Shown here one piece after another: positions 9,422 through 37,375 of a DNA stretch of 64,000 nt. The stretch lies in NCBI GenBank assembly GCA_024867545.1, contig JANFNE010000020.1:682001-746000 (forward strand), written 5' to 3'. The position numbers were made by a program, and so were the translations under genes. Below the pieces are notes generated by a model. That model ran no database searches. It saw only the letters and a list, made by a program, of their open reading frames with translations, and had not been told where the DNA came from. Every line of letters starts with the position of its first letter. Position 1 is the stretch's first letter. Source of the DNA: Phytopythium helicoides (taxonomy: Eukaryota; Oomycota; Peronosporomycetes; Pythiales; Pythiaceae).

Positions 9422-9423
9422 CC

Positions 9424-10654: not shown

Positions 10655-13600
10655 GCCCGACAAGAGGACTGTGAATGTTGTGGAGACACAGGACTCTGGC
10701 CCCGATGTGCATGAGGCACGTGCAGTTTCCACGAGGAGTGATGGAAGTGTCAGTCAGAGCACTGCTCTGATCATGCTCAAAGTTCATGTAGATGGTATTG
10801 AAACGCCTCTACGTGCTTTGGTTGACACTGGAGCGTCGAATAATTTTGTTCGAGCGAAAGTCGTGATCGGGAGTGACAAGACTCCTCACGATGCGACGAA
10901 AGATATGGTTGTTCGGTTGGCCAATGGGTCGACTGTGAAGATGCCTAAGCGAACCGTGCGCTTGGCAATCGAGTTTGAAGATTTCCGAGGCGAGGACGAT
11001 TTCATTCTCCTCGATCTCGATGACAAGTTTGACATCATCCTGGGCATGCCATGGTTGAAGCGTTACCAACCTCGCATTGACTGGATGAAGATGAAGATTT
11101 CCGTCGACAAGAGTGTCAACGAAGACCTGGGCTGCGTTGCAGCAGGTGAAGTGATTTGGGCGTATGCGTCTGTGGAAGATGCGTCGAATGGGACTCAGGA
11201 GTGCGATGGCCCCTCAATCCCACAAGACAAGCCCGAGACGACTACTGGAGGTGGAGCAGTCAGGCGCCAGAAAAAGACTGTCTCCTTTGCCATTGGTGAC
11301 GAGAAAGCTCGTCATGGCGTGAAGTGTGAAGATCCTTCCCAAGATATGAAGAAACCCGACGAAGAGAGTTTTCCGTCGTCAAGCATCCCTGATCAAGATG
11401 CGAGCCAAGGCGATGAAGGTGGTGACCCACAGAGAGGCATCACGAGCAGTTATGCGAACGTCGTGGTCTACGGTGAAGATGGTGACGTCGATGTGTTCCG
11501 TCACGTGAAGATTGAAAATCCTCCAAGTTCAGTCGAAGATTTGGTTTCCTTGCCCGTGATGAGCAAGAAGGCGCTTATGCGTAGCCTGGCGAAAGGCGAA
11601 ATTTCGCAGCTTTGTGCGATTGTTGAGGCAATCGACGAAGACCTCGTCAACACAGCATCGAGTGTGGATGCTGAAGTGTTGCACGAGAAGACACGGAAGG
11701 AGAGGTTCGAGGAGCAGTCATGGGATGCCCTCAAGGAGAACCCCGTGTATGAGCTTGTCCGGGAGTTTGAGGACATATTCCCCGACAAGGTGCCGGACGA
11801 ACTGCCGTTCGACAGAGGCATTCGTCATGAGATTGATGTACTTCCTGGCACGAAGTACTGTATCACTAGACAGTGGCCGTTGCCAAAGGAGCAAGTCGAT
11901 GCGATCGACGAGTTCTTTGCACAACGCGCAAAGGCTGGTCATGTGCGAGAGAGCAAGTCCCCGCACTGCAGCCCCACTTTCTGTGTGAAGAAGGCGACTG
12001 GCGGATGGCGCATCGTTCATGCTTTCAACAAGCTGAACGACGCAACCATTCCCGCTCAGACTCCGGTTCCACGCAAGGACATGATCCTTGATGGAATGGT
12101 TGGCAGCACCGTTTTCAGTGCGATCGATCTGAAGGATGGATTCTATCAGCTTCGAATGCGCGAAAGCGATGTCCCACTAACCGCAGTGAGTACCCCGAGT
12201 GGTATGCTGTGGGAATGGTTAGTGATGCCACAAGGACTGAAGAATGCACCTGCGACTTTCAATCGCATGGTCACGAATGTTCTTCGTCCTTTGCGAACAT
12301 TTGCACCAAGTTACTTTGACGATATATTCGTTCATAGTAAGGCCGTGGACGGAAGATCTGATGTTGATGTTCATCTTGGTCATCTTCGTCAAGTATTCCA
12401 GGTCATGCGTGAGAACAAGCTCTACGCAAACTTGAAGAAGTGCGTGTTCTTTGCCCCTGAGATTCCTGTTCTCGGTTGCTTTGTGGGAAAGAACGGTGTT
12501 CGAGTCGATCCGGAGAAGGTCAAAGCTATTGACGATTGGCCCGTGCCTCAGAATGTCAAACAGCTACGACAGTGGTTGGGTCTGGCCAACTACTTGCACA
12601 AGTACACGCGCAATTATGCAGCGTTAGTGCAGCCTCTCACACAACTGTTGAAGAAAGACGTTGAGTGGAAGTGGTCTGAAGATCACCAAGCGGCGTTCGA
12701 AGAAGTCAAGAGGAGTCTTCGTGAAGCTCCTGTGCTGGCTCTTCCGAACCACGACAAGCCTTTCCACGTCGTCTGTGATGCAAGCGACTATGCCATCGGT
12801 TGCGCTTTGATGCAACACGATGATGAGGGCCGAGAGCGAGTAGTGTCGTATCAATCACGACAACTCCGACCTGCAGAACGGAACTACCCAGTTCATGACA
12901 AGGAACTTCTTGCGATGAAGTATGCCTTAGTCAAGTTCCGTGTATACTTGCTTGGCGAGGAGCGCTTTTCGATCTACACAGATCATGCGTCGCTGCGAAC
13001 AGCGGTAAAGACTCCTCACTTGTCCCAAAGGATGGCTAGGTGGCTCTCCTTCTTTGCGGAGTACAACTTTGTTGTGCACTATAAGCCAGGCAAGATGAAC
13101 ATCCTAGCCGACGCCTTGTCAAGACGTCCGGACTATGATCCCAAGTCCAAGAACGAGGATACGGACGAAGCGTGTCGACTCTGCGAAGATGTTCAAGCGA
13201 TCGCAGTTCAAGCTTCAACTTCAGTGCGCGAAGACATCATCGAGGGATACAAGTCTGACGAGACCTGTCAGGACTTGCTCAAGTATTTCAAGAATCCCTC
13301 TGACAAGGCACTGCAAGGTCTCCCAGCACGAACAAGATCGCGCGTTCACCGCTTTCGAGTACACAATGGGTTGTTGTACTACGCGGTTGAAGATGGGGAT
13401 ACAGAACGAGTTGTTGTTCCCAACGATGAGGGTGTGCGTCATCGACTCTTGTATGAGTATCATGACAGCCCTTCGGGTGGTCATCTCGGACGAGAGAAGA
13501 CATTTCTCAGGCTTTCCCGAGATTACTACTGGCCACACATGTACAAGTGGGTTCGCAAGTATGTGAAGACCTGTGAGATCTGCCAGCGAGTGAAGCCTTC

Positions 13601-15350
13601 AGGCTCCACGCAGGCCCCACTTCGTTCATTGCCTGTCCCCCAGGACAGTTGGAGGTCCGTGAGCATGGATTTTATATTCGGACTTCCACGAGACAAGCAC
13701 CGCAGGAATGGGATCCTGGTGTTTGTGGACCGATTCAGCAAGATGGTCCATCTTGCTCCTGTTTCGGACAAGATCTCAGCCGAGAAGACAGCCAAGGTCT
13801 TTTTGGATGTGGTATTCCGTTTGCATGGCTTGCCAACTGAGATCGTGTCAGACCGTGACACCCGCTTCACATCCAAGTTTTGGCGCGCATTGTTCAAATT
13901 GTTGGGCACCAAGCTGTCCATGTCAACAGCGGCGCACCCTGAAACGGACGGTCAAACGGAACGAGTGAATCGTGTCCTTGAAGACGTACTGCGTAGTTAC
14001 GCTACGTCATTTGGAGAGTGGAGTGAATTTCTCCCTCTCTGCGAGTTTGCGTTGAACAATTCCACGCATGTCTCGACGGGTCACTCCCCATTCTGTGTGA
14101 ACTACGGTCTCCATCCGAGAGTACCAGCGTCACTAGTGGGAGAGGTCTCTACCTTAAGTGGGGGAGGGACTACGGCGAATGACAATACGCCGCAGTCAGA
14201 TGATGACCTGAATGCTGCTATCGAGTTCAATGCCAATTTTGAATCGATGAAACCGTTAGATAAGCTAACTGGTCGCGAGAAGCAGCTAGTCGATGACTTT
14301 GTTGTGCGGAGACAAGCCGTTGTGAGGTTTGTTCGAGACGCAATCGCACAGGCTCAGGATCTGCAAAAGCAAAACGCAGACAAGAGTGGAAGGAAGAACA
14401 AGCAATCTTTCAAGGTCAATGATCTTGTATTGCTTAGTTCGGCGAACCTGTCTGAATATGCAGTGTCCAACCTGGGAAGTTCAAAACTTTTGCCAAGGTT
14501 CATTGGACCGCTCACGGTGGTGAAATGCAATGGTGATGCCTACACACTAGACATCCCAACGAGCATGCGTCTGCACCCAACGTTTTACGTGGGCAGACTA
14601 AAGCCTTACCTTCCAAGTGGGTCCGCAGACCCTAGTGAGCCTTGCGCGAGTGATCCATACGATCATGAAGTTGCTCCATTTGGTGGCGAAGAGTCTTCAA
14701 CTCATCGTCATGGAGCATCTTCTCGGCATAGAGGCGCTGAAGCACATCGAAGGACTCCTCCTTCACTGCTTCCAACGCAAGAAGGCGAGATTGGTACTCC
14801 TTACGAAGTACCTCGAGTGCAGTCCCTGCCTCCTCCACAGAGCGAAGCAGACGCTCATGGAATGCCTCTCGAGCCTTCTGAGTCTTCTGGAGTCGCTCAA
14901 GTTCGGCCTGAACTTGCTCGAACCGTTGCTCAAAACGGGACTCCAATGCCGAACGCTGGGCTGGACCATCGGACAGCGAGTCAAGTATTGACTCCTGCTC
15001 CTTCAGCTGGTCCTCGAGGCTGTCGCACCGGTCAGCGAGAACCGCGTCGCGAACTTCCAGTGCCTCGATCTGCGCACGATGAGCACTCTTCCACTTCCAG
15101 AGCCGCTCGATCGTTTTCGCGTTCAGCCCCACCTCCTCTGATCGATCATCAGGGAGAGCATCGATGGATCGTGGAGTCGATTGTTGGTCACGAGGACCGA
15201 CAGACTCGTGGGAAGAAGCGGTTGACTCGTCAACGCTTCTATCGAGTTCGGTGGCGCGGCTACCCACCGAGTTCGGACACGTGGGAACCGAGACAGACCC
15301 TTGAGTCTGATATTCCCGACGTGGTCCGCAGCTACGAGGCAAGCTTGTAG
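10620..15350 (+). CDS. pol: Pol polyprotein (PR-RT-RNase H-IN-chromodomain)
   Basis: The frame is open from 10473, but translation most likely enters at 10620 by -1 frameshift, giving about 1576 pol residues. In order: aspartic protease with the active site VDTGASNNF (10821 on); reverse transcriptase with YFDD at 12312; RNase H (HVVCDASDYAIGCALMQ, then TDHASL); integrase with the HHCC zinc domain (HDSPSGGHLG...CEICQ) and the DDE core (SMDFIFG; VSDRDTRFTSKFW; the Glu in TDGQTERVNR). There follows a Pro/Ser/His-rich linker and a C-terminal chromodomain (about 15155-15350; RFYRVRWRGYPPSSDTWEP with the aromatic residues). Chromodomains steer integration to modified chromatin. No stops or frameshifts are seen. 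Confidence 0.95.
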   Translation, partial: RERPVGAGLPTGPDKRTVNVVETQDSGPDVHEARAVSTRSDGSVSQSTALIMLKVHVDGIETPLRALVDTGASNNFVRAKVVIGSDKTPHDATKDMVVRLANGSTVKMPKRTVRLAIEFEDFRGEDDFILLDLDDKFDIILGMPWLKRYQPRIDWMKMKISVDKSVNEDLGCVAAGEVIWAYASVEDASNGTQECDGPSIPQDKPETTTGGGAVRRQKKTVSFAIGDEKARHGVKCEDPSQDMKKPDEESFPSSSIPDQDASQGDEGGDPQRGITSSYANVVVYGEDGDVDVFRHVKIENPPSSVEDLVSLPVMSKKALMRSLAKGEISQLCAIVEAIDEDLVNTASSVDAEVLHEKTRKERFEEQSWDALKENPVYELVREFEDIFPDKVPDELPFDRGIRHEIDVLPGTKYCITRQWPLPKEQVDAIDEFFAQRAKAGHVRESKSPHCSPTFCVKKATGGWRIVHAFNKLNDATIPAQTPVPRKDMILDGMVGSTVFSAIDLKDGFYQLRMRESDVPLTAVSTPSGMLWEWLVMPQGLKNAPATFNRMVTNVLRPLRTFAPSYFDDIFVHSKAVDGRSDVDVHLGHLRQVFQVMRENKLYANLKKCVFFAPEIPVLGCFVGKNGVRVDPEKVKAIDDWPVPQNVKQLRQWLGLANYLHKYTRNYAALVQPLTQLLKKDVEWKWSEDHQAAFEEVKRSLREAPVLALPNHDKPFHVVCDASDYAIGCALMQHDDEGRERVVSYQSRQLRPAERNYPVHDKELLAMKYALVKFRVYLLGEERFSIYTDHASLRTAVKTPHLSQRMARWLSFFAEYNFVVHYKPGKMNILADALSRRPDYDPKSKNEDTDEACRLCEDVQAIAVQASTSVREDIIEGYKSDETCQDLLKYFKNPSDKALQGLPARTRSRVHRFRVHNGLLYYAVEDGDTERVVVPNDEGVRHRLLYEYHDSPSGGHLGREKTFLRLSRDYYWPHMYKWVRKYVKTCEICQRVKPSGSTQAPLRSLPVPQDSWRSVSMDFIFGLPRDKHRRNGILVFVDRFSKMVHLAPVSDKISAEKTAKVFLDVVFRLHGLPTEIVSDRDTRFTSKFWRALFKLLGTKLSMSTAAHPETDGQTERVNRVLEDVLRSYATSFGEWSEFLPLCEFALNNSTHVSTGHSPFCVNYGLHPRVPASLVGEVSTLSGGGTTANDNTPQSDDDLNAAIEFNANFESMKPLDKLTGREKQLVDDFVVRRQAVVRFVRDAIAQAQDLQKQNADKSGRKNKQSFKVNDLVLLSSANLSEYAVSNLGSSKLLPRFIGPLTVVKCNGDAYTLDIPTSMRLHPTFYVGRLKPYLPSGSADPSEPCASDPYDHEVAPFGGEESSTHRHGASSRHRGAEAHRRTPPSLLPTQEGEIGTPYEVPRVQSLPPPQSEADAHGMPLEPSESSGVAQVRPELARTVAQNGTPMPNAGLDHRTASQVLTPAPSAGPRGCRTGQREPRRELPVPRSAHDEHSSTSRAARSFSRSAPPPLIDHQGEHRWIVESIVGHEDRQTRGKKRLTRQRFYRVRWRGYPPSSDTWEPRQTLESDIPDVVRSYEASL

Positions 15351-15666
15351 CGTCGCTGGAGACGCTACCGCGACGAAGGCCATGGGCTGCCTTGTCGTGA
15401 CTTGGAGTCTTGCTGAGCAAGCGCTCCATCTTGCCCTCGTTCTCAAGGCGAACAAAGGCTCGCCAAGAGTCTGCCTTGGCTGTGATAGGTTGGTCCGGAT
15501 CATCGCGATTGTTGATCCGACGCCAACGGAAGAACCGCTCCTTATAGTACTCTGTGTCTCCCACCCGACGGCGGATGGAAGTCACATCGAAGAGTTCTGG
15601 AGCCCGGCGCTGGTGCTTGCGCACTGCGGGTTCTTCGAGAGATGCTTGGTCACTTGATCGCTTCAT
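14632..15666 (-). CDS. Antisense ORF in the chromovirus, coiled-coil protein
   Basis: A 344-codon ORF starting at an ATG (15664-15666), running opposite to pol and overlapping its last ~720 bases, including the chromodomain. Residues about 190-340 form an almost unbroken heptad pattern (for example LEDQLKEQESILDSLSDG, VQAELERLQKTQKAREAF, LRKEYQSRLLALEAVKEE), which is far more protein-like than the Ser/Pro/His-rich plus-strand linker opposite. The N-terminal part is basic with an aromatic cluster (YYKERFFRWRRINN) and a loose likeness to chromo-type folds. 316 bases of it lie beyond the pol stop. Function unknown. It could be real, or chance openness caused by a repetitive codon pattern. Confidence 0.55.
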   Translation of the reverse strand: MKRSSDQASLEEPAVRKHQRRAPELFDVTSIRRRVGDTEYYKERFFRWRRINNRDDPDQPITAKADSWRAFVRLENEGKMERLLSKTPSHDKAAHGLRRGSVSSDATSLPRSCGPRREYQTQGSVSVPTCPNSVGSRATELDRSVDESTASSHESVGPRDQQSTPRSIDALPDDRSEEVGLNAKTIERLWKWKSAHRAQIEALEVRDAVLADRCDSLEDQLKEQESILDSLSDGPAQRSALESRFEQRFEQVQAELERLQKTQKAREAFHERLLRSVEEAGTALEVLRKEYQSRLLALEAVKEESFDVLQRLYAEKMLHDDELKTLRHQMEQLHDRMDHSRKAH

Positions 15667-15718
15667 AGCGGTTTCGAAAGTGAGTCAAGCACCCCAAAGA
15701 GAGCGAGTGGTCGCTACT

Positions 15719-15733
15719 TTAAGGGGGGGATGA
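15719..15733 (+). other. Polypurine tract
   Basis: The run TTAAGGGGGGGATGA lies immediately before the 3' LTR and would prime plus-strand DNA synthesis. Confidence 0.85.
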
Positions 15734-16345
15734 TGTAATGGGCCCCATGTCCATTACATGACACAATCTGGTCACAGATTGGTGTCTGTGACAGCAGACT
15801 GGTGTCTGTGGCAGCAGACTGGTGTGAGACACACTCACGGGAGCAATCAATGATTGCGACCGCACGGAATGTTCTCGAAGCATTCTCGAGTGCTCTCTGC
15901 ACACGTGTCTCTGTGCATGAAGATGGTTCCTGCTGGATTTCTCTCTAGTGACGAAGCCGACGTGTCATTGTGGGTACATGTTCGTGGTTTCAACCAATCA
16001 CAACGTGCCACGTGGCGGGAGAGAGGTTCTTTGTTGAAGAACCCGAAGCTCAAGTTCAAGTTCAAGTTGGAGAACATTCTCCTGGTCCAAGCTTCAAGTT
16101 CAACCTGATTCAACCCAAGGTTTTATATTGCATTTGTAGGTTGATTGCATTTAACCCCATAGGACCCTAGTGGTTTTATGCTCGTAGGATTCAGGAACCA
16201 TAAGCTTTTCAATTCAGTTGCAAATTTGCCGCCTTCATCTCAAGTCTCCCTCCTCCTCCCTCCAAGTCGGGAGAGGCCAAGTCTTCCTCAAGCGCAAGCG
16301 TGTGTGCCGTGTTTTGGGGACTGTCGTGGACAGCGCCCCATTACA
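15734..16345 (+). repeat. 3' LTR of the chromovirus
   Basis: 612 bp, matching the 5' LTR with one visible difference. It is followed by the second CGGTT target duplication at 16346-16350. Confidence 0.97.
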
Positions 16346-17928
16346 CGGTTCCTTTTGCGTGATCAAGGAGGAAAGCGATTCCCATCGCAGTAGTGTGCAT
16401 GTTATTCCACCGATCTCTGATGAGTCTCAGCACCTCATTGCGAGCTCGTGCGTATCGCTGGGAGACTCGACGTCGGTATACGTGGTGGCTTCATAACTCG
16501 CCAAAGAGATGGTAGATCATGGAGGAGCAGCAATTCTCACTCTCAAAACTGGCCAATTTCTTGTTTATGGGCTCAATTAGCAGCAGAACTTCGCTAGCGT
16601 CGTCCCAGAAAGTCTCGTCACCAAAAATTGCCTCGGCTGCAGCAAGTTTTTCCTGGTTTTGCTCGTTTTCCGATATCGTGTCAGCAATTCGTCATCAGAA
16701 AAAGTAAGTTTGATGGCTGGTTTGCTGTTGACCACCGAGAGGATGCATGACTCAACTGAAAACCAACGCGTTGCTGCAGGGAGTTTAAGTCCGTGACGTT
16801 GCTCACCGACACGTTGATTTTGCTTTACTCGTGGAGTAGAGCACTTCTTTTTTCACAAACTTGCTCAGCAAAGTGGCATCTGCTTTGATGCGCTTAAAAA
16901 AAGCTGAGTTTGAAAATGTCAGCTACGAGCAGATTCATGACGTGTGTTGCGCACCCATTGCCAAAAACATGCCCCATTTTACGCTCTAAGATATCCTGCA
17001 TCCCGATCATGTTCGAAGCATTGTCAGACAGAATTCCAGCGACACGTTGAGGCCTGAGTCGGCTCTCGATGTCAGTGGCCACCTTCATCATCTCGTCTGC
17101 CATGTACGCTGATGTGTGTTGGTTGGATCCAGTAGCAACCGATCTCCAAAACGCAGGCTTCATTACAGGTGAAGTGATAACGAAATTAATGATGTTTTCG
17201 TTATTTGGATCAGACCAGCCGTCGGTGATGATTGAAACGTAGTCAGAGCGCTTGAGATCTTGTAGCACGAGCGTCAACTCCTCGTTGTAAACATGGTCGA
17301 GCAATGCATTTACCAGTCTATCACGAGACGGAAACACATATCCAGGGCAAAGCGCAAAAATGAACGCACGGAACCTCGCGTTCTCAACGAGACGAAACGG
17401 ATTCCCAGTAGAGTAGATGAATTTTGCTAGCAGAATTTGAAGCTGAAGAATCTCTTCCTGGGTCAGTACAGATTGCACCTCACAAACTCCGCACGTGCAA
17501 GGGCAGCAGCACTCTCGGTCGCCGTTGTCTCGGGTGTCACTAGATTGCCGCTTGTTGGGCGGTAGATCGTCCGCATACGAGAGGTACGGCGTCATCAGTC
17601 TGACTTTCACGCTAGCAGCGTCGTCCTCTTCATCAGAATAGGGCTTGAGCTCGTCGTCGCTGTTGAATGAGTTGTATTCCTCGTCGTCTACCGCTTCATC
17701 AGTTTTCGCTGGGTGAGTTCCGTGTTGCTTGATGTCAGACATGTTACTCCAATCATCATCGTTGAGGTCTTCCTCATCATCGGAGATGTCGTTATAGGCT
17801 TTCTTGGTGACGAAACGGAAAGGGTGCTTTTCGTCGAGGAATGCGCAAACACGAGCATTCCAGACGTCAAAGTTACTCACTCCCGTTTGACGGGGAAAGT
17901 CTACGCTAGAGGCTTGACTTGGGCTCAT
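16346..17928 (-). pseudogene. hAT transposase, N-terminal and central part
   Basis: The minus-strand ORF 17928-16894 (344 codons) starts with MSPSQASSVDFPRQ, carries a long acidic stretch, a Cys-rich CCCPCTCGVCEVQ segment, then the hAT catalytic core (SIITDGWSDPNNENIINFVI, GILSDNASNM, GCATHVMNLLVADI). It breaks at a T-run near 16899; similarity continues in another frame (KRIKADATLLSKFVKKEV) with more frame changes and stops to 16346. The frame at 16346 continues in phase into 8809, showing that one hAT gene was split by the retrotransposon. I could not identify hAT terminal inverted repeats. Confidence 0.85.
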
Positions 17929-18242
17929 AACATGTGGACGCTGGAGGATGATGAGAGGACGACTGAAGAGCAGAAGAGAGGGTAAAAGAAGAAGTGAATT
18001 AATTTTACCGGCCTTGCGGATGTCCTCGAGTACCAGCCATTCATTCCAAATTTATAACGTATTGCAGGAGCATGTGTAAAGACACGGAAGTGAATGGCGC
18101 AAACTCCAGTTGTCAAGTCGACACAGTGACACCAATAAAGTCACCCAACACATACATACCCATGGAGCGCTGCCACTTGCTACTGTGCATGTCTTCAACA
18201 CGCGCACATGTATCGGCGCGGAGGACCGCGAAATGTGTTACT

Positions 18243-18275
18243 ACATCTGAACATCTGAACATCTGAACATCTGAA
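18243..18275 (+). repeat. Short tandem repeat (ACATCTGA)4 in array unit 1
   Basis: Four head-to-tail 8-bp copies, present at the same place in every array unit. Confidence 0.85.
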
Positions 18276-18408
18276 CCTTGAATTGCTCGACCAGTTGGCT
18301 GGTCGTGTTGGTTCTGTACTACTTCTCGTTCTGCGACTGCTTGGTGTCCTTCTTACTCGACTCCCCCTTGCTTTCACTTCGGTTTGCACCAACCAACCAT
18401 GTGTGACT

Positions 18409-18448
18409 GGCACCTCGACAAAAAGTCTTTGTGGTGCCTTTTGTCGAG
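18409..18448 (+). other. Alternative hairpins in the array unit
   Basis: CTCGACAAAA (18414-18423) pairs perfectly with TTTTGTCGAG (18439-18448) across a 15-nt loop. The neighbouring GGCAC (18409-18413) pairs with GTGCC (18434-18438), which lies in that loop, so the two stems interleave. The same sequence recurs in all units. Whether it is transcribed is unknown. Confidence 0.6.
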
Positions 18449-18740
18449 TCCAGTTTTTGTCTCTTTTTGTCTTTCTTTCTTTTCGTTTCTTTTCTGTTTC
18501 TTCTCTGTTTCTTTTTTTTTCCTTTATTGGTTGGTTGGTTGGCTGGTTCGAGTTTGATTGTAACGAGTGTTGCTCCATTTGTGTGATTGATTGGTAATTT
18601 CTGGGTGGGGAAAGGCTGTCCCTCGGATCTCCGGATCAATCGCGGTGCGTGTGTGAAGGAAAGGAATGGTGGTGACAGTCGGTAGGTGTGTTGTAAAATG
18701 TAGCATAATGGGCCGGTGGGGATCGAGCGCCCGTCGATGG

Positions 18741-18744
18741 AAAA
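18741..18744 (-). terminator. Likely pol III terminator of tRNA copy 1
   Basis: The first run of four T on the transcribed strand lies 48 nt past the tRNA 3' end. Only three T occur closer (CTTTG). The same spacing holds in the other units. Confidence 0.45.
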
Positions 18745-18791
18745 GCTGCCAGCGGAACTGCAGAGAAGGGAGGACACCACACAAAGAGGAC

Positions 18792-18864
18792 CGCCCCCCG
18801 TGGGGCTCGAACCCACGACCACTGGCTTAAAAGGCCAGCGCTCTACCGACTGAGCTAGACGGGC
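18792..18864 (-). tRNA. tRNA-Lys(UUU), array copy 1
   Basis: 73 nt, intronless. Acceptor GCCCGTC pairs with GGGGGGC (one G-G mismatch and one U-G pair), discriminator G. The D arm is TAGCTCAGTCGGTAGAGC, the anticodon loop CTTTTAA has anticodon UUU, and the T arm is GTGGGTTCGAGCCCCAC. A- and B-box sequences match pol III consensus, and the D and T arms closely match known eukaryotic tRNA-Lys. Confidence 0.97.
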
Positions 18865-18889
18865 GCAGATTCGCTCATCACCGTGCACT

Positions 18890-18896
18890 TTCTATA
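18890..18896 (-). promoter_or_regulatory. TATA-like box upstream of tRNA copy 1
   Basis: GTATAGA on the minus strand about 30 bp before the tRNA 5' end, as seen upstream of some pol III genes. It is present in units 1-11 but absent from copy 12, whose 5' flank is different. Confidence 0.35.
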
Positions 18897-19046
18897 CACA
18901 CTCACATACACACTCACATACACACAAAACACAAACAAACAAACGACTAACAACACACTACGCATCACAAACACACACACAACATTCCGACACAACACAT
19001 ACATCATTTTACTCCACTTTCATTCACACCGTTCTTTCTTCACCAA

Positions 19047-19049
<3 letters not shown>

Positions 19050-19088
<39 letters not shown>
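19050..19088. repeat. (CA)n microsatellite of array unit 1
   Basis: 39 nt here. The matching tracts I measured are 67 nt in unit 2 (20186-20252), 75 nt in unit 5 (23624-23698) and 33 nt in unit 7 (25932-25964). It is the main source of unit length differences. Confidence 0.95.
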
Positions 19089-19091
<3 letters not shown>

Positions 19092-19927
19092 CGTCCACCT
19101 TTCAAAATCACTCAAAACTAAATAACCAAAACCAAACCAACACCATGGACCCACCATGAAACGAGCGCGCAAAATACCAACAACACACAGCACATCATAG
19201 TACACTACAAAAGAGGACAAAACGGCGACCTCCGTTCATAAAAGGAATAGATAACACATATCAATACAAATAAAGTACACCTAACACATACATACCCATG
19301 GAGCGCTGCCACTTGCTACTGTGCATGTCTTCAACACGCGCACATGTATCGGCGCGGAGGACCGCGAAATGTGTTACTACATCTGAACATCTGAACATCT
19401 GAACATCTGAACCTTGAATTGCTCGACCAGTTGGCTGGTCGTGTTGGTTCTGTACTACTTCTCGTTCTGCGACTGCTTGGTGTCCTTCTTACTCGACTCC
19501 CCCTTGCTTTCACTTCGGTTTGCGCCAACCAACCATGTGTGACTGGCACCTCGACAAAAAGTCTTTGTGGTGCCTTTTGTCGAGTCCAGTTTTTGTCTCT
19601 TTTTGTCTTTCTTTCTTTTCGTTTCTTTTCTGTTTCTTCTCTGTTTCTTTTTTTTTCCTTTATTGGTTGGTTGGTTGGCTGGTTCGAGTTTGATTGTAAC
19701 GAGTGTTGCTCCATTTGTGTGATTGATTGGTAATTTCTGGGTGGGGAAAGGCTGTCCCTCGGATCTCCGGATCAATCGCGGTGCGTGTGTGAAGGAAAGG
19801 AATGGTGGTGACAGTCGGTAGGTGTGTTGTAAAATGTAGCATAATGGGCCGGTGGGGATCGAGCGCCCGTCGATGGAAAAGCTGCCAGCGGAACTGCAGA
19901 GAAGGGAGGACACCACACAAAGAGGAC

Positions 19928-20000
19928 CGCCCCCCGTGGGGCTCGAACCCACGACCACTGGCTTAAAAGGCCAGCGCTCTACCGACTGAGCTAGACGGGC
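19928..20000 (-). tRNA. tRNA-Lys(UUU), array copy 2
   Basis: Sequence identical to copy 1, with the same flanks. Confidence 0.97.
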
Positions 20001-20182
20001 GCAGATTCGCTCATCACCGTGCACTTTCTATACACACTCACATACACACTCACATACACACAAAACACAAACAAACAAACGACTAACAACACACTACGCA
20101 TCACAAACACACACACAACATTCCGACACAACACATACATCATTTTACTCCACTTTCATTCACACCGTTCTTTCTTCACCAA

Positions 20183-20255
<73 letters not shown>

Positions 20256-21091
20256 CGTCCACCTTTCAAAATCACTCAAAACTAAATAACCAAAACCAAA
20301 CCAACACCATGGACCCACCATGAAACGAGCGCGCAAAATACCAACAACACACAGCACATCATAGTACACTACAAAAGAGGACAAAACGGCGACCTCCGTT
20401 CATAAAAGGAATAGATAACACATATCAATACAAATAAAGTACACCCAACACATACATACCCATGGAGCGCTGCCACTTGCTACTGTGCATGTCTTCAACA
20501 CGCGCACATGTATCGGCGCGGAGGACCGCGAAATGTGTTACTACATCTGAACATCTGAACATCTGAACATCTGAACCTTGAATTGCTCGACCAGTTGGCT
20601 GGTCGTGTTGGTTCTGTACTACTTCTCGTTCTGCGACTGCTTGGTGTCCTTCTTACTCGACTCCCCCTTGCTTTCACTTCGGTTTGCGCCAACCAACCAT
20701 GTGTGACTGGCACCTCGACAAAAAGTCTTTGTGGTGCCTTTTGTCGAGTCCAGTTTTTGTCTCTTTTTGTCTTTCTTTCTTTTCGTTTCTTTTCTGTTTC
20801 TTCTCTGTTTCTTTTTTTTTCCTTTATTGGTTGGTTGGTTGGCTGGTTCGAGTTTGATTGTAACGAGTGTTGCTCCATTTGTGTGATTGATTGGTAATTT
20901 CTGGGTGGGGAAAGGCTGTCCCTCGGATCTCCGGATCAATCGCGGTGCGTGTGTGAAGGAAAGGAATGGTGGTGACAGTCGGTAGGTGTGTTGTAAAATG
21001 TAGCATAATGGGCCGGTGGGGATCGAGCGCCCGTCGATGGAAAAGCTGCCAGCGGAACTGCAGAGAAGGGAGGACACCACACAAAGAGGAC

Positions 21092-21164
21092 CGCCCCCCG
21101 TGGGGCTCGAACCCACGACCACTGGCTTAAAAGGCCAGCGCTCTACCGACTGAGCTAGACGGGC
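21092..21164 (-). tRNA. tRNA-Lys(UUU), array copy 3
   Basis: Sequence identical to copy 1, with the same flanks. Confidence 0.97.
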
Positions 21165-21346
21165 GCAGATTCGCTCATCACCGTGCACTTTCTATACACA
21201 CTCACATACACACTCACATACACACAAAACACAAACAAACAAACGACTAACAACACACTACGCATCACAAACACACACACAACATTCCGACACAACACAT
21301 ACATCATTTTACTCCACTTTCATTCACACCGTTCTTTCTTCACCAA

Positions 21347-21393
<47 letters not shown>

Positions 21394-22230
21394 CGTCCAC
21401 CTTTCAAAATCACTCAAAACTAAATAACCAAAACCAAACCAACACCATGGACCCACCATGAAACGAGCGCGCAAAATACCAACAACACACAGCACATCAT
21501 AGTACACTACAAAAGAGGACAAAACGGCGACCTCCGTTCATAAAAGGAATAGATAACACATATCAATACAAATAAAGTACACCCAACACATACATACCCA
21601 TGGAGCGCTGCCACTTGCTACTGTGCATGTCTTCAACACGCGCACATGTATCGGCGCGGAGGACCGCGAAATGTGTTACTACATCTGAACATCTGAACAT
21701 CTGAACATCTGAACCTTGAATTGCTCGACCAGTTGGCTGGTCGTGTTGGTTCTGTACTACTTCTCGTTCTGCGACTGCTTGGTGTCCTTCTTACTCGACT
21801 CCCCCTTGCTTTCACTTCGGTTTGCGCCAACCAACCATGTGTGACTGGCACCTCGACAAAAAGTCTTTGTGGTGCCTTTTGTCGAGTCCAGTTTTTGTCT
21901 CTTTTTGTCTTTCTTTCTTTTCGTTTCTTTTCTGTTTCTTCTCTGTTTCTTTTTTTTTTCCTTTATTGGTTGGTTGGTTGGCTGGTTCGAGTTTGATTGT
22001 AACGAGTGTTGCTCCATTTGTGTGATTGATTGGTAATTTCTGGGTGGGGAAAGGCTGTCCCTCGGATCTCCGGATCAATCGCGGTGCGTGTGTGAAGGAA
22101 AGGAATGGTGGTGACAGTCGGTAGGTGTGTTGTAAAATGTAGCATAATGGGCCGGTGGGGATCGAGCGCCCGTCGATGGAAAAGCTGCCAGCGGAACTGC
22201 AGAGAAGGGAGGACACCACACAAAGAGGAC

Positions 22231-22303
22231 CGCCCCCCGTGGGGCTCGAACCCACGACCACTGGCTTAAAAGGCCAGCGCTCTACCGACTGAGCTAGACG
22301 GGC
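22231..22303 (-). tRNA. tRNA-Lys(UUU), array copy 4
   Basis: Sequence identical to copy 1, with the same flanks. Confidence 0.97.
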
Positions 22304-22485
22304 GCAGATTCGCTCATCACCGTGCACTTTCTATACACACTCACATACACACTCACATACACACAAAACACAAACAAACAAACGACTAACAACACACTAC
22401 GCATCACAAACACACACACAACATTCCGACACAACACATACATCATTTTACTCCACTTTCATTCACACCGTTCTTTCTTCACCAA

Positions 22486-22528
<43 letters not shown>

Positions 22529-23365
22529 CGTCCACCTTTCAAAATCACTCAAAACTAAATAACCAAAACCAAACCAACACCATGGACCCACCATGAAACG
22601 AGCGCGCAAAATACCAACAACACACAGCACATCATAGTACACTACAAAAGAGGACAAAACGGCGACCTCCGTTCATAAAAGGAATAGATAACACATATCA
22701 ATACAAATAAAGTACACCCAACACATACATACCCATGGAGCGCTGCCACTTGCTACTGTGCATGTCTTCAACACGCGCACATGTATCGGCGCGGAGGACC
22801 GCGAAATGTGTTACTACATCTGAACATCTGAACATCTGAACATCTGAACCTTGAATTGCTCGACCAGTTGGCTGGTCGTGTTGGTTCTGTACTACTTCTC
22901 GTTCTGCGACTGCTTGGTGTCCTTCTTACTCGACTCCCCCTTGCTTTCACTTCGGTTTGCGCCAACCAACCATGTGTGACTGGCACCTCGACAAAAAGTC
23001 TTTGTGGTGCCTTTTGTCGAGTCCAGTTTTTGTCTCTTTTTGTCTTTCTTTCTTTTCGTTTCTTTTCTGTTTCTTCTCTGTTTCTTTTTTTTTTCCTTTA
23101 TTGGTTGGTTGGTTGGCTGGTTCGAGTTTGATTGTAACGAGTGTTGCTCCATTTGTGTGATTGATTGGTAATTTCTGGGTGGGGAAAGGCTGTCCCTCGG
23201 ATCTCCGGATCAATCGCGGTGCGTGTGTGAAGGAAAGGAATGGTGGTGACAGTCGGTAGGTGTGTTGTAAAATGTAGCATAATGGGCCGGTGGGGATCGA
23301 GCGCCCGTCGATGGAAAAGCTGCCAGCGGAACTGCAGAGAAGGGAGGACACCACACAAAGAGGAC

Positions 23366-23438
23366 CGCCCCCCGTGGGGCTCGAACCCACGACCACTGGC
23401 TTAAAAGGCCAGCGCTCTACCGACTGAGCTAGACGGGC
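23366..23438 (-). tRNA. tRNA-Lys(UUU), array copy 5
   Basis: Sequence identical to copy 1; its unit has the longest (CA)n tract I measured. Confidence 0.97.
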
Positions 23439-23620
23439 GCAGATTCGCTCATCACCGTGCACTTTCTATACACACTCACATACACACTCACATACACACA
23501 AAACACAAACAAACAAACGACTAACAACACACTACGCATCACAAACACACACACAACATTCCGACACAACACATACATCATTTTACTCCACTTTCATTCA
23601 CACCGTTCTTTCTTCACCAA

Positions 23621-23701
<81 letters not shown>

Positions 23702-24539
23702 CGTCCACCTTTCAAAATCACTCAAAACTAAATAACCAAAACCAAACCAACACCATGGACCCACCATGAAACGAGCGCGCAAAATACCAACAACACACAG
23801 CACATCATAGTACACTACAAAAGAGGACAAAACGGCGACCTCCGTTCATAAAAGGAATAGATAACACATATCAATACAAATAAAGTACACCCAACACATA
23901 CATACCCATGGAGCGCTGCCACTTGCTACTGTGCATGTCTTCAACACGCGCACATGTATCGGCGCGGAGGACCGCGAAATGTGTTACTACATCTGAACAT
24001 CTGAACATCTGAACATCTGAACCTTGAATTGCTCGACCAGTTGGCTGGTCGTGTTGGTTCTGTACTACTTCTCGTTCTGCGACTGCTTGGTGTCCTTCTT
24101 ACTCGACTCCCCCTTGCTTTCACTTCGGTTTGCGCCAACCAACCATGTGTGACTGGCACCTCGACAAAAAGTCTTTGTGGTGCCTTTTGTCGAGTCCAGT
24201 TTTTGTCTCTTTTTGTCTTTCTTTCTTTTCGTTTCTTTTCTGTTTCTTCTCTGTTTCTTTTTTTTTTTCCTTTATTGGTTGGTTGGTTGGCTGGTTCGAG
24301 TTTGATTGTAACGAGTGTTGCTCCATTTGTGTGATTGATTGGTAATTTCTGGGTGGGGAAAGGCTGTCCCTCGGATCTCCGGATCAATCGCGGTGCGTGT
24401 GTGAAGGAAAGGAATGGTGGTGACAGTCGGTAGGTGTGTTGTAAAATGTAGCATAATGGGCCGGTGGGGATCGAGCGCCCGTCGATGGAAAAGCTGCCAG
24501 CGGAACTGCAGAGAAGGGAGGACACCACACAAAGAGGAC

Positions 24540-24612
24540 CGCCCCCCGTGGGGCTCGAACCCACGACCACTGGCTTAAAAGGCCAGCGCTCTACCGACTG
24601 AGCTAGACGGGC
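24540..24612 (-). tRNA. tRNA-Lys(UUU), array copy 6
   Basis: Sequence identical to copy 1; its unit has the longest T run I saw. Confidence 0.97.
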
Positions 24613-24794
24613 GCAGATTCGCTCATCACCGTGCACTTTCTATACACACTCACATACACACTCACATACACACAAAACACAAACAAACAAACGACTAACA
24701 ACACACTACGCATCACAAACACACACACAACATTCCGACACAACACATACATCATTTTACTCCACTTTCATTCACACCGTTCTTTCTTCACCAA

Positions 24795-24837
<43 letters not shown>

Positions 24838-25673
24838 CGTCCACCTTTCAAAATCACTCAAAACTAAATAACCAAAACCAAACCAACACCATGGACCCAC
24901 CATGAAACGAGCGCGCAAAATACCAACAACACACAGCACATCATAGTACACTACAAAAGAGGACAAAACGGCGACCTCCGTTCATAAAAGGAATAGATAA
25001 CACATATCAATACAAATAAAGTACACCCAACACATACATACCCATGGAGCGCTGCCACTTGCTACTGTGCATGTCTTCAACACGCGCACATGTATCGGCG
25101 CGGAGGACCGCGAAATGTGTTACTACATCTGAACATCTGAACATCTGAACATCTGAACCTTGAATTGCTCGACCAGTTGGCTGGTCGTGTTGGTTCTGTA
25201 CTACTTCTCGTTCTGCGACTGCTTGGTGTCCTTCTTACTCGACTCCCCCTTGCTTTCACTTCGGTTTGCGCCAACCAACCATGTGTGACTGGCACCTCGA
25301 CAAAAAGTCTTTGTGGTGCCTTTTGTCGAGTCCAGTTTTTGTCTCTTTTTGTCTTTCTTTCTTTTCGTTTCTTTTCTGTTTCTTCTCTGTTTCTTTTTTT
25401 TTCCTTTATTGGTTGGTTGGTTGGCTGGTTCGAGTTTGATTGTAACGAGTGTTGCTCCATTTGTGTGATTGATTGGTAATTTCTGGGTGGGGAAAGGCTG
25501 TCCCTCGGATCTCCGGATCAATCGCGGTGCGTGTGTGAAGGAAAGGAATGGTGGTGACAGTCGGTAGGTGTGTTGTAAAATGTAGCATAATGGGCCGGTG
25601 GGGATCGAGCGCCCGTCGATGGAAAAGCTGCCAGCGGAACTGCAGAGAAGGGAGGACACCACACAAAGAGGAC

Positions 25674-25746
25674 CGCCCCCCGTGGGGCTCGAACCCACGA
25701 CCACTGGCTTAAAAGGCCAGCGCTCTACCGACTGAGCTAGACGGGC
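25674..25746 (-). tRNA. tRNA-Lys(UUU), array copy 7
   Basis: Sequence identical to copy 1, with the same flanks. Confidence 0.97.
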
Positions 25747-25928
25747 GCAGATTCGCTCATCACCGTGCACTTTCTATACACACTCACATACACACTCACA
25801 TACACACAAAACACAAACAAACAAACGACTAACAACACACTACGCATCACAAACACACACACAACATTCCGACACAACACATACATCATTTTACTCCACT
25901 TTCATTCACACCGTTCTTTCTTCACCAA

Positions 25929-25967
<39 letters not shown>

Positions 25968-26804
25968 CGTCCACCTTTCAAAATCACTCAAAACTAAATA
26001 ACCAAAACCAAACCAACACCATGGACCCACCATGAAACGAGCGCGCAAAATACCAACAACACACAGCACATCATAGTACACTACAAAAGAGGACAAAACG
26101 GCGACCTCCGTTCATAAAAGGAATAGATAACACATATCAATACAAATAAAGTACACCCAACACATACATACCCATGGAGCGCTGCCACTTGCTACTGTGC
26201 ATGTCTTCAACACGCGCACATGTATCGGCGCGGAGGACCGCGAAATGTGTTACTACATCTGAACATCTGAACATCTGAACATCTGAACCTTGAATTGCTC
26301 GACCAGTTGGCTGGTCGTGTTGGTTCTGTACTACTTCTCGTTCTGCGACTGCTTGGTGTCCTTCTTACTCGACTCCCCCTTGCTTTCACTTCGGTTTGCG
26401 CCAACCAACCATGTGTGACTGGCACCTCGACAAAAAGTCTTTGTGGTGCCTTTTGTCGAGTCCAGTTTTTGTCTCTTTTTGTCTTTCTTTCTTTTCGTTT
26501 CTTTTCTGTTTCTTCTCTGTTTCTTTTTTTTTTCCTTTATTGGTTGGTTGGTTGGCTGGTTCGAGTTTGATTGTAACGAGTGTTGCTCCATTTGTGTGAT
26601 TGATTGGTAATTTCTGGGTGGGGAAAGGCTGTCCCTCGGATCTCCGGATCAATCGCGGTGCGTGTGTGAAGGAAAGGAATGGTGGTGACAGTCGGTAGGT
26701 GTGTTGTAAAATGTAGCATAATGGGCCGGTGGGGATCGAGCGCCCGTCGATGGAAAAGCTGCCAGCGGAACTGCAGAGAAGGGAGGACACCACACAAAGA
26801 GGAC

Positions 26805-26877
26805 CGCCCCCCGTGGGGCTCGAACCCACGACCACTGGCTTAAAAGGCCAGCGCTCTACCGACTGAGCTAGACGGGC
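26805..26877 (-). tRNA. tRNA-Lys(UUU), array copy 8
   Basis: Sequence identical to copy 1, with the same flanks. Confidence 0.97.
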
Positions 26878-27059
26878 GCAGATTCGCTCATCACCGTGCA
26901 CTTTCTATACACACTCACATACACACTCACATACACACAAAACACAAACAAACAAACGACTAACAACACACTACGCATCACAAACACACACACAACATTC
27001 CGACACAACACATACATCATTTTACTCCACTTTCATTCACACCGTTCTTTCTTCACCAA

Positions 27060-27136
<77 letters not shown>

Positions 27137-27973
27137 CGTCCACCTTTCAAAATCACTCAAAACTAAATAACCAAAACCAAACCAACACCATGGACCCACC
27201 ATGAAACGAGCGCGCAAAATACCAACAACACACAGCACATCATAGTACACTACAAAAGAGGACAAAACGGCGACCTCCGTTCATAAAAGGAATAGATAAC
27301 ACATATCAATACAAATAAAGTACACCCAACACATACATACCCATGGAGCGCTGCCACTTGCTACTGTGCATGTCTTCAACACGCGCACATGTATCGGCGC
27401 GGAGGACCGCGAAATGTGTTACTACATCTGAACATCTGAACATCTGAACATCTGAACCTTGAATTGCTCGACCAGTTGGCTGGTCGTGTTGGTTCTGTAC
27501 TACTTCTCGTTCTGCGACTGCTTGGTGTCCTTCTTACTCGACTCCCCCTTGCTTTCACTTCGGTTTGCGCCAACCAACCATGTGTGACTGGCACCTCGAC
27601 AAAAAGTCTTTGTGGTGCCTTTTGTCGAGTCCAGTTTTTGTCTCTTTTTGTCTTTCTTTCTTTTCGTTTCTTTTCTGTTTCTTCTCTGTTTCTTTTTTTT
27701 TTCCTTTATTGGTTGGTTGGTTGGCTGGTTCGAGTTTGATTGTAACGAGTGTTGCTCCATTTGTGTGATTGATTGGTAATTTCTGGGTGGGGAAAGGCTG
27801 TCCCTCGGATCTCCGGATCAATCGCGGTGCGTGTGTGAAGGAAAGGAATGGTGGTGACAGTCGGTAGGTGTGTTGTAAAATGTAGCATAATGGGCCGGTG
27901 GGGATCGAGCGCCCGTCGATGGAAAAGCTGCCAGCGGAACTGCAGAGAAGGGAGGACACCACACAAAGAGGAC

Positions 27974-28046
27974 CGCCCCCCGTGGGGCTCGAACCCACGA
28001 CCACTGGCTTAAAAGGCCAGCGCTCTACCGACTGAGCTAGACGGGC
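27974..28046 (-). tRNA. tRNA-Lys(UUU), array copy 9
   Basis: Sequence identical to copy 1, with the same flanks. Confidence 0.97.
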
Positions 28047-28228
28047 GCAGATTCGCTCATCACCGTGCACTTTCTATACACACTCACATACACACTCACA
28101 TACACACAAAACACAAACAAACAAACGACTAACAACACACTACGCATCACAAACACACACACAACATTCCGACACAACACATACATCATTTTACTCCACT
28201 TTCATTCACACCGTTCTTTCTTCACCAA

Positions 28229-28271
<43 letters not shown>

Positions 28272-29108
28272 CGTCCACCTTTCAAAATCACTCAAAACTA
28301 AATAACCAAAACCAAACCAACACCATGGACCCACCATGAAACGAGCGCGCAAAATACCAACAACACACAGCACATCATAGTACACTACAAAAGAGGACAA
28401 AACGGCGACCTCCGTTCATAAAAGGAATAGATAACACATATCAATACAAATAAAGTACACCCAACACATACATACCCATGGAGCGCTGCCACTTGCTACT
28501 GTGCATGTCTTCAACACGCGCACATGTATCGGCGCGGAGGACCGCGAAATGTGTTACTACATCTGAACATCTGAACATCTGAACATCTGAACCTTGAATT
28601 GCTCGACCAGTTGGCTGGTCGTGTTGGTTCTGTACTACTTCTCGTTCTGCGACTGCTTGGTGTCCTTCTTACTCGACTCCCCCTTGCTTTCACTTCGGTT
28701 TGCGCCAACCAACCATGTGTGACTGGCACCTCGACAAAAAGTCTTTGTGGTGCCTTTTGTCGAGTCCAGTTTTTGTCTCTTTTTGTCTTTCTTTCTTTTC
28801 GTTTCTTTTCTGTTTCTTCTCTGTTTCTTTTTTTTTTCCTTTATTGGTTGGTTGGTTGGCTGGTTCGAGTTTGATTGTAACGAGTGTTGCTCCATTTGTG
28901 TGATTGATTGGTAATTTCTGGGTGGGGAAAGGCTGTCCCTCGGATCTCCGGATCAATCGCGGTGCGTGTGTGAAGGAAAGGAATGGTGGTGACAGTCGGT
29001 AGGTGTGTTGTAAAATGTAGCATAATGGGCCGGTGGGGATCGAGCGCCCGTCGATGGAAAAGCTGCCAGCGGAACTGCAGAGAAGGGAGGACACCACACA
29101 AAGAGGAC

Positions 29109-29181
29109 CGCCCCCCGTGGGGCTCGAACCCACGACCACTGGCTTAAAAGGCCAGCGCTCTACCGACTGAGCTAGACGGGC
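29109..29181 (-). tRNA. tRNA-Lys(UUU), array copy 10
   Basis: Sequence identical to copy 1, with the same flanks. Confidence 0.97.
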
Positions 29182-29363
29182 GCAGATTCGCTCATCACCG
29201 TGCACTTTCTATACACACTCACATACACACTCACATACACACAAAACACAAACAAACAAACGACTAACAACACACTACGCATCACAAACACACACACAAC
29301 ATTCCGACACAACACATACATCATTTTACTCCACTTTCATTCACACCGTTCTTTCTTCACCAA

Positions 29364-29406
<43 letters not shown>

Positions 29407-30243
29407 CGTCCACCTTTCAAAATCACTCAAAACTAAATAACCAAAACCAAACCAACACCATGGACCCACCATGAAACGAGCGCGCAAAATACCAACAACA
29501 CACAGCACATCATAGTACACTACAAAAGAGGACAAAACGGCGACCTCCGTTCATAAAAGGAATAGATAACACATATCAATACAAATAAAGTACACCCAAC
29601 ACATACATACCCATGGAGCGCTGCCACTTGCTACTGTGCATGTCTTCAACACGCGCACATGTATCGGCGCGGAGGACCGCGAAATGTGTTACTACATCTG
29701 AACATCTGAACATCTGAACATCTGAACCTTGAATTGCTCGACCAGTTGGCTGGTCGTGTTGGTTCTGTACTACTTCTCGTTCTGCGACTGCTTGGTGTCC
29801 TTCTTACTCGACTCCCCCTTGCTTTCACTTCGGTTTGCGCCAACCAACCATGTGTGACTGGCACCTCGACAAAAAGTCTTTGTGGTGCCTTTTGTCGAGT
29901 CCAGTTTTTGTCTCTTTTTGTCTTTCTTTCTTTTCGTTTCTTTTCTGTTTCTTCTCTGTTTCTTTTTTTTTTCCTTTATTGGTTGGTTGGTTGGCTGGTT
30001 CGAGTTTGATTGTAACGAGTGTTGCTCCATTTGTGTGATTGATTGGTAATTTCTGGGTGGGGAAAGGCTGTCCCTCGGATCTCCGGATCAATCGCGGTGC
30101 GTGTGTGAAGGAAAGGAATGGTGGTGACAGTCGGTAGGTGTGTTGTAAAATGTAGCATAATGGGCCGGTGGGGATCGAGCGCCCGTCGATGGAAAAGCTG
30201 CCAGCGGAACTGCAGAGAAGGGAGGACACCACACAAAGAGGAC

Positions 30244-30316
30244 CGCCCCCCGTGGGGCTCGAACCCACGACCACTGGCTTAAAAGGCCAGCGCTCTACCG
30301 ACTGAGCTAGACGGGC
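30244..30316 (-). tRNA. tRNA-Lys(UUU), array copy 11
   Basis: Sequence identical to copy 1, with the same flanks. Confidence 0.97.
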
Positions 30317-30498
30317 GCAGATTCGCTCATCACCGTGCACTTTCTATACACACTCACATACACACTCACATACACACAAAACACAAACAAACAAACGACT
30401 AACAACACACTACGCATCACAAACACACACACAACATTCCGACACAACACATACATCATTTTACTCCACTTTCATTCACACCGTTCTTTCTTCACCAA

Positions 30499-30537
<39 letters not shown>

Positions 30538-31374
30538 CGTCCACCTTTCAAAATCACTCAAAACTAAATAACCAAAACCAAACCAACACCATGGACCCAC
30601 CATGAAACGAGCGCGCAAAATACCAACAACACACAGCACATCATAGTACACTACAAAAGAGGACAAAACGGCGACCTCCGTTCATAAAAGGAATAGATAA
30701 CACATATCAATACAAATAAAGTACACCCAACACATACATACCCATGGAGCGCTGCCACTTGCTACTGTGCATGTCTTCAACACGCGCACATGTATCGGCG
30801 CGGAGGACCGCGAAATGTGTTACTACATCTGAACATCTGAACATCTGAACATCTGAACCTTGAATTGCTCGACCAGTTGGCTGGTCGTGTTGGTTCTGTA
30901 CTACTTCTCGTTCTGCGACTGCTTGGTGTCCTTCTTACTCGACTCCCCCTTGCTTTCACTTCGGTTTGCGCCAACCAACCATGTGTGACTGGCACCTCGA
31001 CAAAAAGTCTTTGTGGTGCCTTTTGTCGAGTCCAGTTTTTGTCTCTTTTTGTCTTTCTTTCTTTTCGTTTCTTTTCTGTTTCTTCTCTGTTTCTTTTTTT
31101 TTTCCTTTATTGGTTGGTTGGTTGGCTGGTTCGAGTTTGATTGTAACGAGTGTTGCTCCATTTGTGTGATTGATTGGTAATTTCTGGGTGGGGAAAGGCT
31201 GTCCCTCGGATCTCCGGATCAATCGCGGTGCGTGTGTGAAGGAAAGGAATGGTGGTGACAGTCGGTAGGTGTGTTGTAAAATGTAGCATAATGGGCCGGT
31301 GGGGATCGAGCGCCCGTCGATGGAAAAGCTGCCAGCGGAACTGCAGAGAAGGGAGGACACCACACAAAGAGGAC

Positions 31375-31447
31375 CGCCCCCCGTGGGGCTCGAACCCACG
31401 ACCACTGGCTTAAAAGGCCAGCGCTCTACCGACTGAGCTAGACGGGC
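31375..31447 (-). tRNA. tRNA-Lys(UUU), array copy 12 (array edge)
   Basis: The tRNA is identical to copy 1, but unit homology stops about 3 bp beyond its 5' end (CTGCTTAGTAAC replaces CAGATTCGCTC). It therefore lacks the array's TATA-like upstream region and (CA)n tract. Its internal A and B boxes are intact. Confidence 0.95.
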
Positions 31448-31571
31448 GCTGCTTAGTAACATTTCTCCAGAGTTAACTTTATACACTAGCTGCCTAACAT
31501 CGTCGAACCCTGCGCGAAGCCTATGGAGGTAGGGATAGTATTGGGTCAGATGCTGTGGTTTAGATTATTTT

Positions 31572-33649: not shown

Positions 33650-33930
33650 GACACTGATTCAAAATAACTCAACGTCGAGTCACCAATATTTTAGGCGACA
33701 ATGAGTCACTATAACTCGACGTCGATTCTCATTAACTCGACGTTGATTCATAATAACTCGGCGTTGATTCAAAATTACTCGACTTCGAGACACAATAACT
33801 CGCCGGATTCATAATTACTCGACGCTGGTTCAAAATTACGCGATGTGAAGTCACAATTACCCGACATATTTTCAAAATTTGTCGACGTTGATTCAATATT
33901 ACTCGAAAGGGTTTCATAATAGCACGGCAA
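33650..33930 (+). repeat. Degenerate ~21-bp iteron array, left
   Basis: About a dozen copies of a unit like ACTCGACGTTGATTCATAAT, variably spaced and degenerate. The same unit occurs in reverse orientation at 37215-37375, so the two arrays form long imperfect inverted ends around the HTH and Ulp1 genes. Confidence 0.75.
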
Positions 33931-37214: not shown

Positions 37215-37375
37215 AACTGTCGATGATTTATTGACTAATAGTGAGTAATAGTCGAGTAATTTTGAATCAGCGTCGAGTAATATTGAATCAACATCGACTG
37301 ATTTTGAATCAGTGTCGAGTTATTATGAATCAACGTCGAGCAATTATGAATCAAATTCGAGTTATTTTGACTCGT
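37215..37375 (-). repeat. Degenerate ~21-bp iteron array, right (inverted)
   Basis: Copies such as CGAGTTATTATGAATCAACG are the reverse complement of the left-array unit. Together with 33650-33930 they bound about 3.3 kb of coding-like sequence. Confidence 0.75.

Follow-up and report, generated by a model that had tools for sequence, protein, structure and literature searches.

The window analyzed here is a 64,000-nucleotide stretch of the Phytopythium helicoides genome (assembly GCA_024867545.1; 49.06 Mb in 100 contigs), corresponding to positions 682,001–746,000 of the 1.27-Mb contig JANFNE010000020.1, and it contains a tandem array of genes for the transfer RNA (tRNA) that carries lysine, tRNA-Lys(UUU). 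ARAGORN identified 12 tRNA-Lys(UUU) genes, all on the minus strand, spanning 18,792 to 31,447, and found no further tRNA genes in the window. Each of the 12 scored 66.6 bits in Rfam (gathering score, 29), and at that threshold Rfam, too, detected no additional RNA gene in the window. All 12 copies consist of a single, identical 73-nt sequence on the same strand, with one gene in each head-to-tail unit of 1,131–1,174 bp. Both programs thus agree with a first-pass annotation of this DNA, made from the letters alone, which had described 12 identical genes in tandem without naming their strand. Successive genes are spaced 1136, 1164, 1139, 1135, 1174, 1134, 1131, 1169, 1135, 1135, and 1131 bp apart. 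The repeat extends from about 18134 to 31449, stopping 2 bp outside the 5′ end of the last tRNA gene, so that the span annotated earlier, 18131–31450, was correct within a few bases. Both edges adjoin unrelated DNA of the same contig.

The length variation among the 11 full units comes wholly from a (CA)n tract (33–75 nt) and a T-run (9–11). With these masked, ten of the 11 units match at every position, and a single substitution sets unit 1 apart; in the left partial unit there is one substitution, at 18388, along with an indel of one base near 18141. All differences other than those in the CA tract and T-run are therefore confined to the two leftmost units. Near-identity in the interior of an array, with variants at one edge, is the expected product of unequal exchange and gene conversion. 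The restriction of differences to the two leftmost units fits such exchange models, and the same edge pattern occurs in Phytophthora infestans (PMC9584435). We are confident that the locus is a tandem array, homogenised and undergoing concerted evolution, whose units for tRNA-Lys(UUU) are independent RNA polymerase III (Pol III) units, in line with the strong homogenisation that the first-pass annotation had supposed. As in ribosomal DNA, unequal exchange and gene conversion would account for the growth and uniformity of the array, and each unit would be transcribed by Pol III independently of the others. Short tandem repeats between the genes, also anticipated in the earlier annotation, are present in each unit and include the CA tract, an 8-bp repeat (4.2 copies), and a 12-bp repeat (2.7 copies), among others. 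Long CA tracts (67–75 nt) are confined to units 2, 5, and 8 of the 11 (19050–30534); we set aside this apparent period of three units, as it rests on three events and could have arisen by chance.

It seems very improbable that assembly error produced the array or its copy number. Mis-sizing of arrays does occur in assemblies, as Matson et al. note for oomycetes (PMC9584435), but here the units vary in CA length and T-run and differ at one edge, unlike DNA lies on either side, and similar arrays occur elsewhere in the same assembly; in P. infestans, moreover, read depth matched the assembly counts (PMC9584435).

Across the genome, an exact pattern for the tRNA-Lys(UUU) gene, which may miss degenerate genes, had 18 matches, comprising the 12 genes of this array and six matches on three contigs (C89, C91, and C92) that carry a different tRNA-Lys. 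These three contigs are probably mitochondrial, judging from their repeated inverted copies and clustered tRNAs, and outside them the exact pattern places the tRNA-Lys(UUU) family at one locus. At least five more tRNA arrays are present in the genome. The Lys-CUU array has 41 exact genes in the first 24 kb of contig C21, mostly 548–564 bp apart, and runs off the start of that contig, where no telomere-like repeat was found in the first 1.5 kb. The Thr-UGU array on contig C57 has at least 36 genes about 740 bp apart, plus six in the next stretch, and all 29 pattern matches for Phe-GAA lie on contig C28, where they form blocks and two of the gaps are larger. On contig C72 (stretch L050, 5433–9464), eight Gln genes occupy one 10-kb stretch, the last seven alternating between CUG and UUG. 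The array on contig C4, examined in full at its two ends (stretches L048 and L049), repeats Thr-CGU, Ser-GCU, and a U6 small nuclear RNA (snRNA) gene, with Trp-CCA on the opposite strand, in units of about 1.8–1.9 kb, and spans roughly 739.5–853.4 kb. Every C4 unit seen complete contains the U6 gene, and all 48 U6 matches that were scored, of 1,790 first-look candidates in the genome, fall in this array. The C4 and C72 arrays thus have multi-gene units, unlike the single-tRNA Lys-UUU unit. Both the C4 array and the C57 array, as far as the latter was seen, are interior on their contigs.

The sister arrays are similarly uniform: substitutions affect two columns in 12 Thr-UGU units and, in Lys-CUU, three columns across all 39 units and one across the 35 that lie past 4 kb, and all arrays compared also differ in length between units. 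Homogenised tRNA arrays are common in this genome, and the Lys-UUU array is among the shorter ones. A pattern combining A-box and B-box matched the genome 478 times, versus zero for its reversed control. All nine tRNA families seen are arrayed, but their discovery was largely through repeats. No match was obtained with patterns representing initiator Met, Asp, Ala, and Val, built on anticodon loops that may not fit this organism, and one further pattern had four matches, all on contigs judged mitochondrial.

The Lys-UUU array belongs to a type already known in oomycetes, contrary to the first-pass annotation, which knew of no such layout in this group. Matson et al. (2022; PMC9584435) reported 7,519 tRNA genes in P. 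infestans and described tandem monomeric tRNA arrays supported by read depth. As in P. helicoides, the arrays of P. infestans include head-to-tail arrays of one tRNA gene with near-identical units and edge variants, as well as Thr-CGT/Trp-CCA/Ser-GCT trimers and Gln CTG/TTG dimers. Our findings differ in coming from another genome, to which they extend the oomycete tRNA arrays, and in the shortness of the Lys-UUU array (12 copies). The recurrence of the gene content named in P. infestans, Thr-Ser-Trp and Gln-Gln, suggests that the oomycete arrays are old and maintained. More unusual is the strand-specific G+T-rich 5′ flank shared by the arrayed genes, described below. Neither this flank nor U6 in the trimer is mentioned in the available part of Matson et al. 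(PMC9584435), and we found no description of either in an oomycete tRNA array in the literature searched, which covered few subscription journals. We regard the genome-wide pattern of arrays, together with the shared directional flank, as being of moderate interest.

The general likeness to Entamoeba proposed in the earlier annotation holds: the arrays of that genus also consist of uniform tandem tRNA units, with several arrays per genome (Tawari et al., PMC2652664), and in E. histolytica and E. dispar short tandem repeats likewise separate the tRNA genes (PMC2652664). Almost all Entamoeba tRNA genes are arrayed, in units of up to five tRNA genes and in some cases 5S RNA (PMC2652664), whereas the Lys-UUU unit has one tRNA and no other Rfam family. 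A location of the Entamoeba arrays at chromosome ends is a proposal only (PMC2652664); the Lys-UUU array is interior, at 700–713 kb of its 1.27-Mb contig, and not at a chromosome end. The Arabidopsis tRNA-Cys cluster, too, is built of tandem tRNA units (0.4 kb) of variable copy number, but it is small, comprising four genes, and most tRNA genes of that genome are dispersed (PMC10701932).

The flank is a region of about 450 bp, G+T-rich on the coding strand, that lies 5′ of tRNA-Lys(UUU) copies 1–11 and is missing at edge copy 12; upstream of copy 2, G+T reaches 0.80 over 300 bp. When G+T was scored over 150 bp upstream, 98 of 101 tRNA gene observations exceeded all 593 background windows (99th percentile 0.63, maximum 0.65), and the flank was found in all nine tRNA families sampled. 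The 13 Phe observations represent seven distinct genes (their loci overlap), and four genes, two Thr-UGU, one Thr-CGU, and one Trp, were unscored. The three observations that did not exceed every background window were the edge copy of Lys-UUU (0.44), the first Thr-CGU copy, at the edge of its array (0.60), and one Trp (0.65) with a window that reaches into the divergent Thr flank. Within the C4 unit, the bias reverses between the divergent Trp and Thr genes, plus-strand G+T being 0.12 at 8151 and 0.94 at 8251 of stretch L048.

We tentatively propose, at somewhat less than even confidence, that the G+T-rich flank is a promoter-proximal or nucleosome-organising Pol III element. In its general form, the proposal would be that the DNA 5′ of arrayed oomycete tRNA genes is G+T-rich in a strand-specific manner over 150–450 bp, a likeness of composition and not of sequence, and that across entire arrays this DNA organises nucleosomes or transcription by Pol III; this, too, we consider possible rather than probable. 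The flank would then act as an upstream element of Pol III genes defined by its composition, comparable with the GT-rich RNA polymerase II (Pol II) promoters of trypanosomes, and the array-edge copies without it would be natural mutants. In Trypanosoma brucei, transcription start regions are likewise G+T-rich, and the GT-rich promoters are able to drive both transcription and the deposition of H2A.Z (Wedel et al. 2017, PMC5579346). T. brucei is of an unrelated lineage and its promoters serve Pol II, whereas the genes here are predicted Pol III genes; the comparison is by analogy only. If the flank does work in Pol III transcription, this would explain the purpose of the non-tRNA DNA in the unit, and copy 12 would be a built-in test case, since its leader diverges from those of copies 1–11 at the third base upstream of the gene and would make its precursor distinguishable. 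The suggestion in the first-pass annotation that some part of the unit other than the tRNA may be what is selected gains some support from the shared flank.

Several observations weigh against this proposal. The G+T background was drawn from six stretches of three contigs. The Lys-CUU genes are also G+T-rich downstream (0.79 over 300 bp), so the flank is not strictly 5′, and three of four Phe genes reach 0.74 over the 200 bp downstream. Copy 12 keeps an intact gene without the flank. It is a serious possibility, only a little short of an even chance, that the G+T-rich flank is instead a microsatellite or a by-product of recombination that aids exchange between units and has no role in transcription. 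No part of the unit varies more than the CA/TG tract, the Lys-CUU spacer is G+T-rich on either side of the gene, and the words common to different flanks are mainly low-complexity TG strings, indicating that the flanks are alike in composition and not in sequence. A by-product of this kind is harder to reconcile with a bias that tracks the orientation of every tRNA gene and reverses within one unit between the divergent Trp and Thr genes, or with the slight bias at the U6 gene of the C4 unit, where G+T is 0.59 over 300 bp and TATTTATAG lies upstream.

More than 90% of the Lys-UUU unit is non-tRNA, and a transcript from the spacer might in principle be the item amplified; we consider this improbable. 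An inverted repeat adjoined by a second, interleaved complementary pair has an exact copy in each of the 12 spacers and could form a hairpin or a pseudoknot-like fold. A scan of one unit on both strands in 120-nt windows returned seven windows with z below −2 (60 shuffles, uncorrected); five lay either in the spacer surrounding the inverted repeat or, on one strand, in the region of the CA tract, and one covered the tRNA in antisense. Two stretches of the spacer gave better folds than shuffled sequences (z of about −3.0 to −3.6; 60 shuffles, uncorrected) and may harbour an undescribed RNA. A second RNA gene, U6, is present in a sister array. On the other hand, no other RNA family was found in the unit at the Rfam gathering threshold, and nothing credible appeared up to E = 10. 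Open reading frame (ORF) lengths differ among copies (171, 176, 189, and 231 aa), and we rejected a protein-coding role of the unit on this ground. All sampled arrays have tRNA genes, though it was tRNA searches that found those arrays. A degenerate second tRNA-Lys downstream of each gene (about 18,712–18,754) was also considered and judged too weak, its alignment score of 24 being reached in two of 1,000 shuffles and in one of 148 other pieces of the window. Elsewhere in the genome, a search with the spacer gave one 85-bp match (80%) beside the Gln array; the search missed the Lys-UUU array itself and so says little about absence. No relatives were found in viral contigs, and a search of a plasmid collection gave one 40-bp match in one record.

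The amplified tRNA-Lys(UUU) gene itself contains TAGCTCAGTCGG and GGTTCGAGCCC, an intact internal A-box and B-box that fit the Pol III consensus, as in a type 2 gene. The first TTTT lies at +48 downstream, compared with +120 in Gln-UUG and +3 to +9 in a further six families, so the tRNA-Lys(UUU) precursor likely has a longer 3′ trailer. Five ORFs, of which three lacked a Pfam match, contained 26 AAA versus 41 AAG codons, too few to decide demand for this tRNA. Twelve copies might raise the supply of tRNA-Lys(UUU), as the first-pass annotation supposed, though the level of a tRNA may not follow its gene number (Matson et al. 2022, PMC9584435).

Table 1 Features of the tRNA-Lys(UUU) array, in window coordinates
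Feature	Position	Strand	Called by
Whole array: left partial unit (spacer and tRNA), then 11 full units of 1,131–1,174 bp	18134..31449	-	
tRNA-Lys(UUU) copy 1	18792..18864	-	ARAGORN, Rfam
tRNA-Lys(UUU) copy 2	19928..20000	-	ARAGORN, Rfam
tRNA-Lys(UUU) copy 3	21092..21164	-	ARAGORN, Rfam
tRNA-Lys(UUU) copy 4	22231..22303	-	ARAGORN, Rfam
tRNA-Lys(UUU) copy 5	23366..23438	-	ARAGORN, Rfam
tRNA-Lys(UUU) copy 6	24540..24612	-	ARAGORN, Rfam
tRNA-Lys(UUU) copy 7	25674..25746	-	ARAGORN, Rfam
tRNA-Lys(UUU) copy 8	26805..26877	-	ARAGORN, Rfam
tRNA-Lys(UUU) copy 9	27974..28046	-	ARAGORN, Rfam
tRNA-Lys(UUU) copy 10	29109..29181	-	ARAGORN, Rfam
tRNA-Lys(UUU) copy 11	30244..30316	-	ARAGORN, Rfam
tRNA-Lys(UUU) copy 12, edge copy; upstream DNA unlike that of copies 1–11, G+T 0.44–0.45	31375..31447	-	
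G+T-rich 5′ flank, example (copy 2): nine 50-bp bins at 0.64–1.00 G+T on the coding strand	20001..20450	-	
(CA)n tract, example, inside the G+T-rich flank	20186..20252	+	
Inverted repeat with adjoining second, interleaved complementary pair; equivalents in the 11 other spacers	18414..18448		

The DNA around the array is of a different character. A Ty3-type long terminal repeat (LTR) retrotransposon at 8810–16033, with gag, protease, reverse transcriptase, RNase H, integrase, and chromodomain, ends 2.1 kb to the left of the array; its two 300-bp direct repeats are 100% identical, and it is a recent insertion. Between the two, at a distance of about 200 bp from the left edge of the array, lies an ORF with a DUF659 domain (16894–17928, minus strand). 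One protein of the window has its best matches in oomycetes (Nothophytophthora and Phytophthora ramorum, 58% identity; Globisporangium ultimum, 55%), which agrees with the oomycete host assumed in the first-pass annotation. To the right of the tRNA genes are two arrays of 21-bp repeats, at 33711–33906 and 37251–37370.

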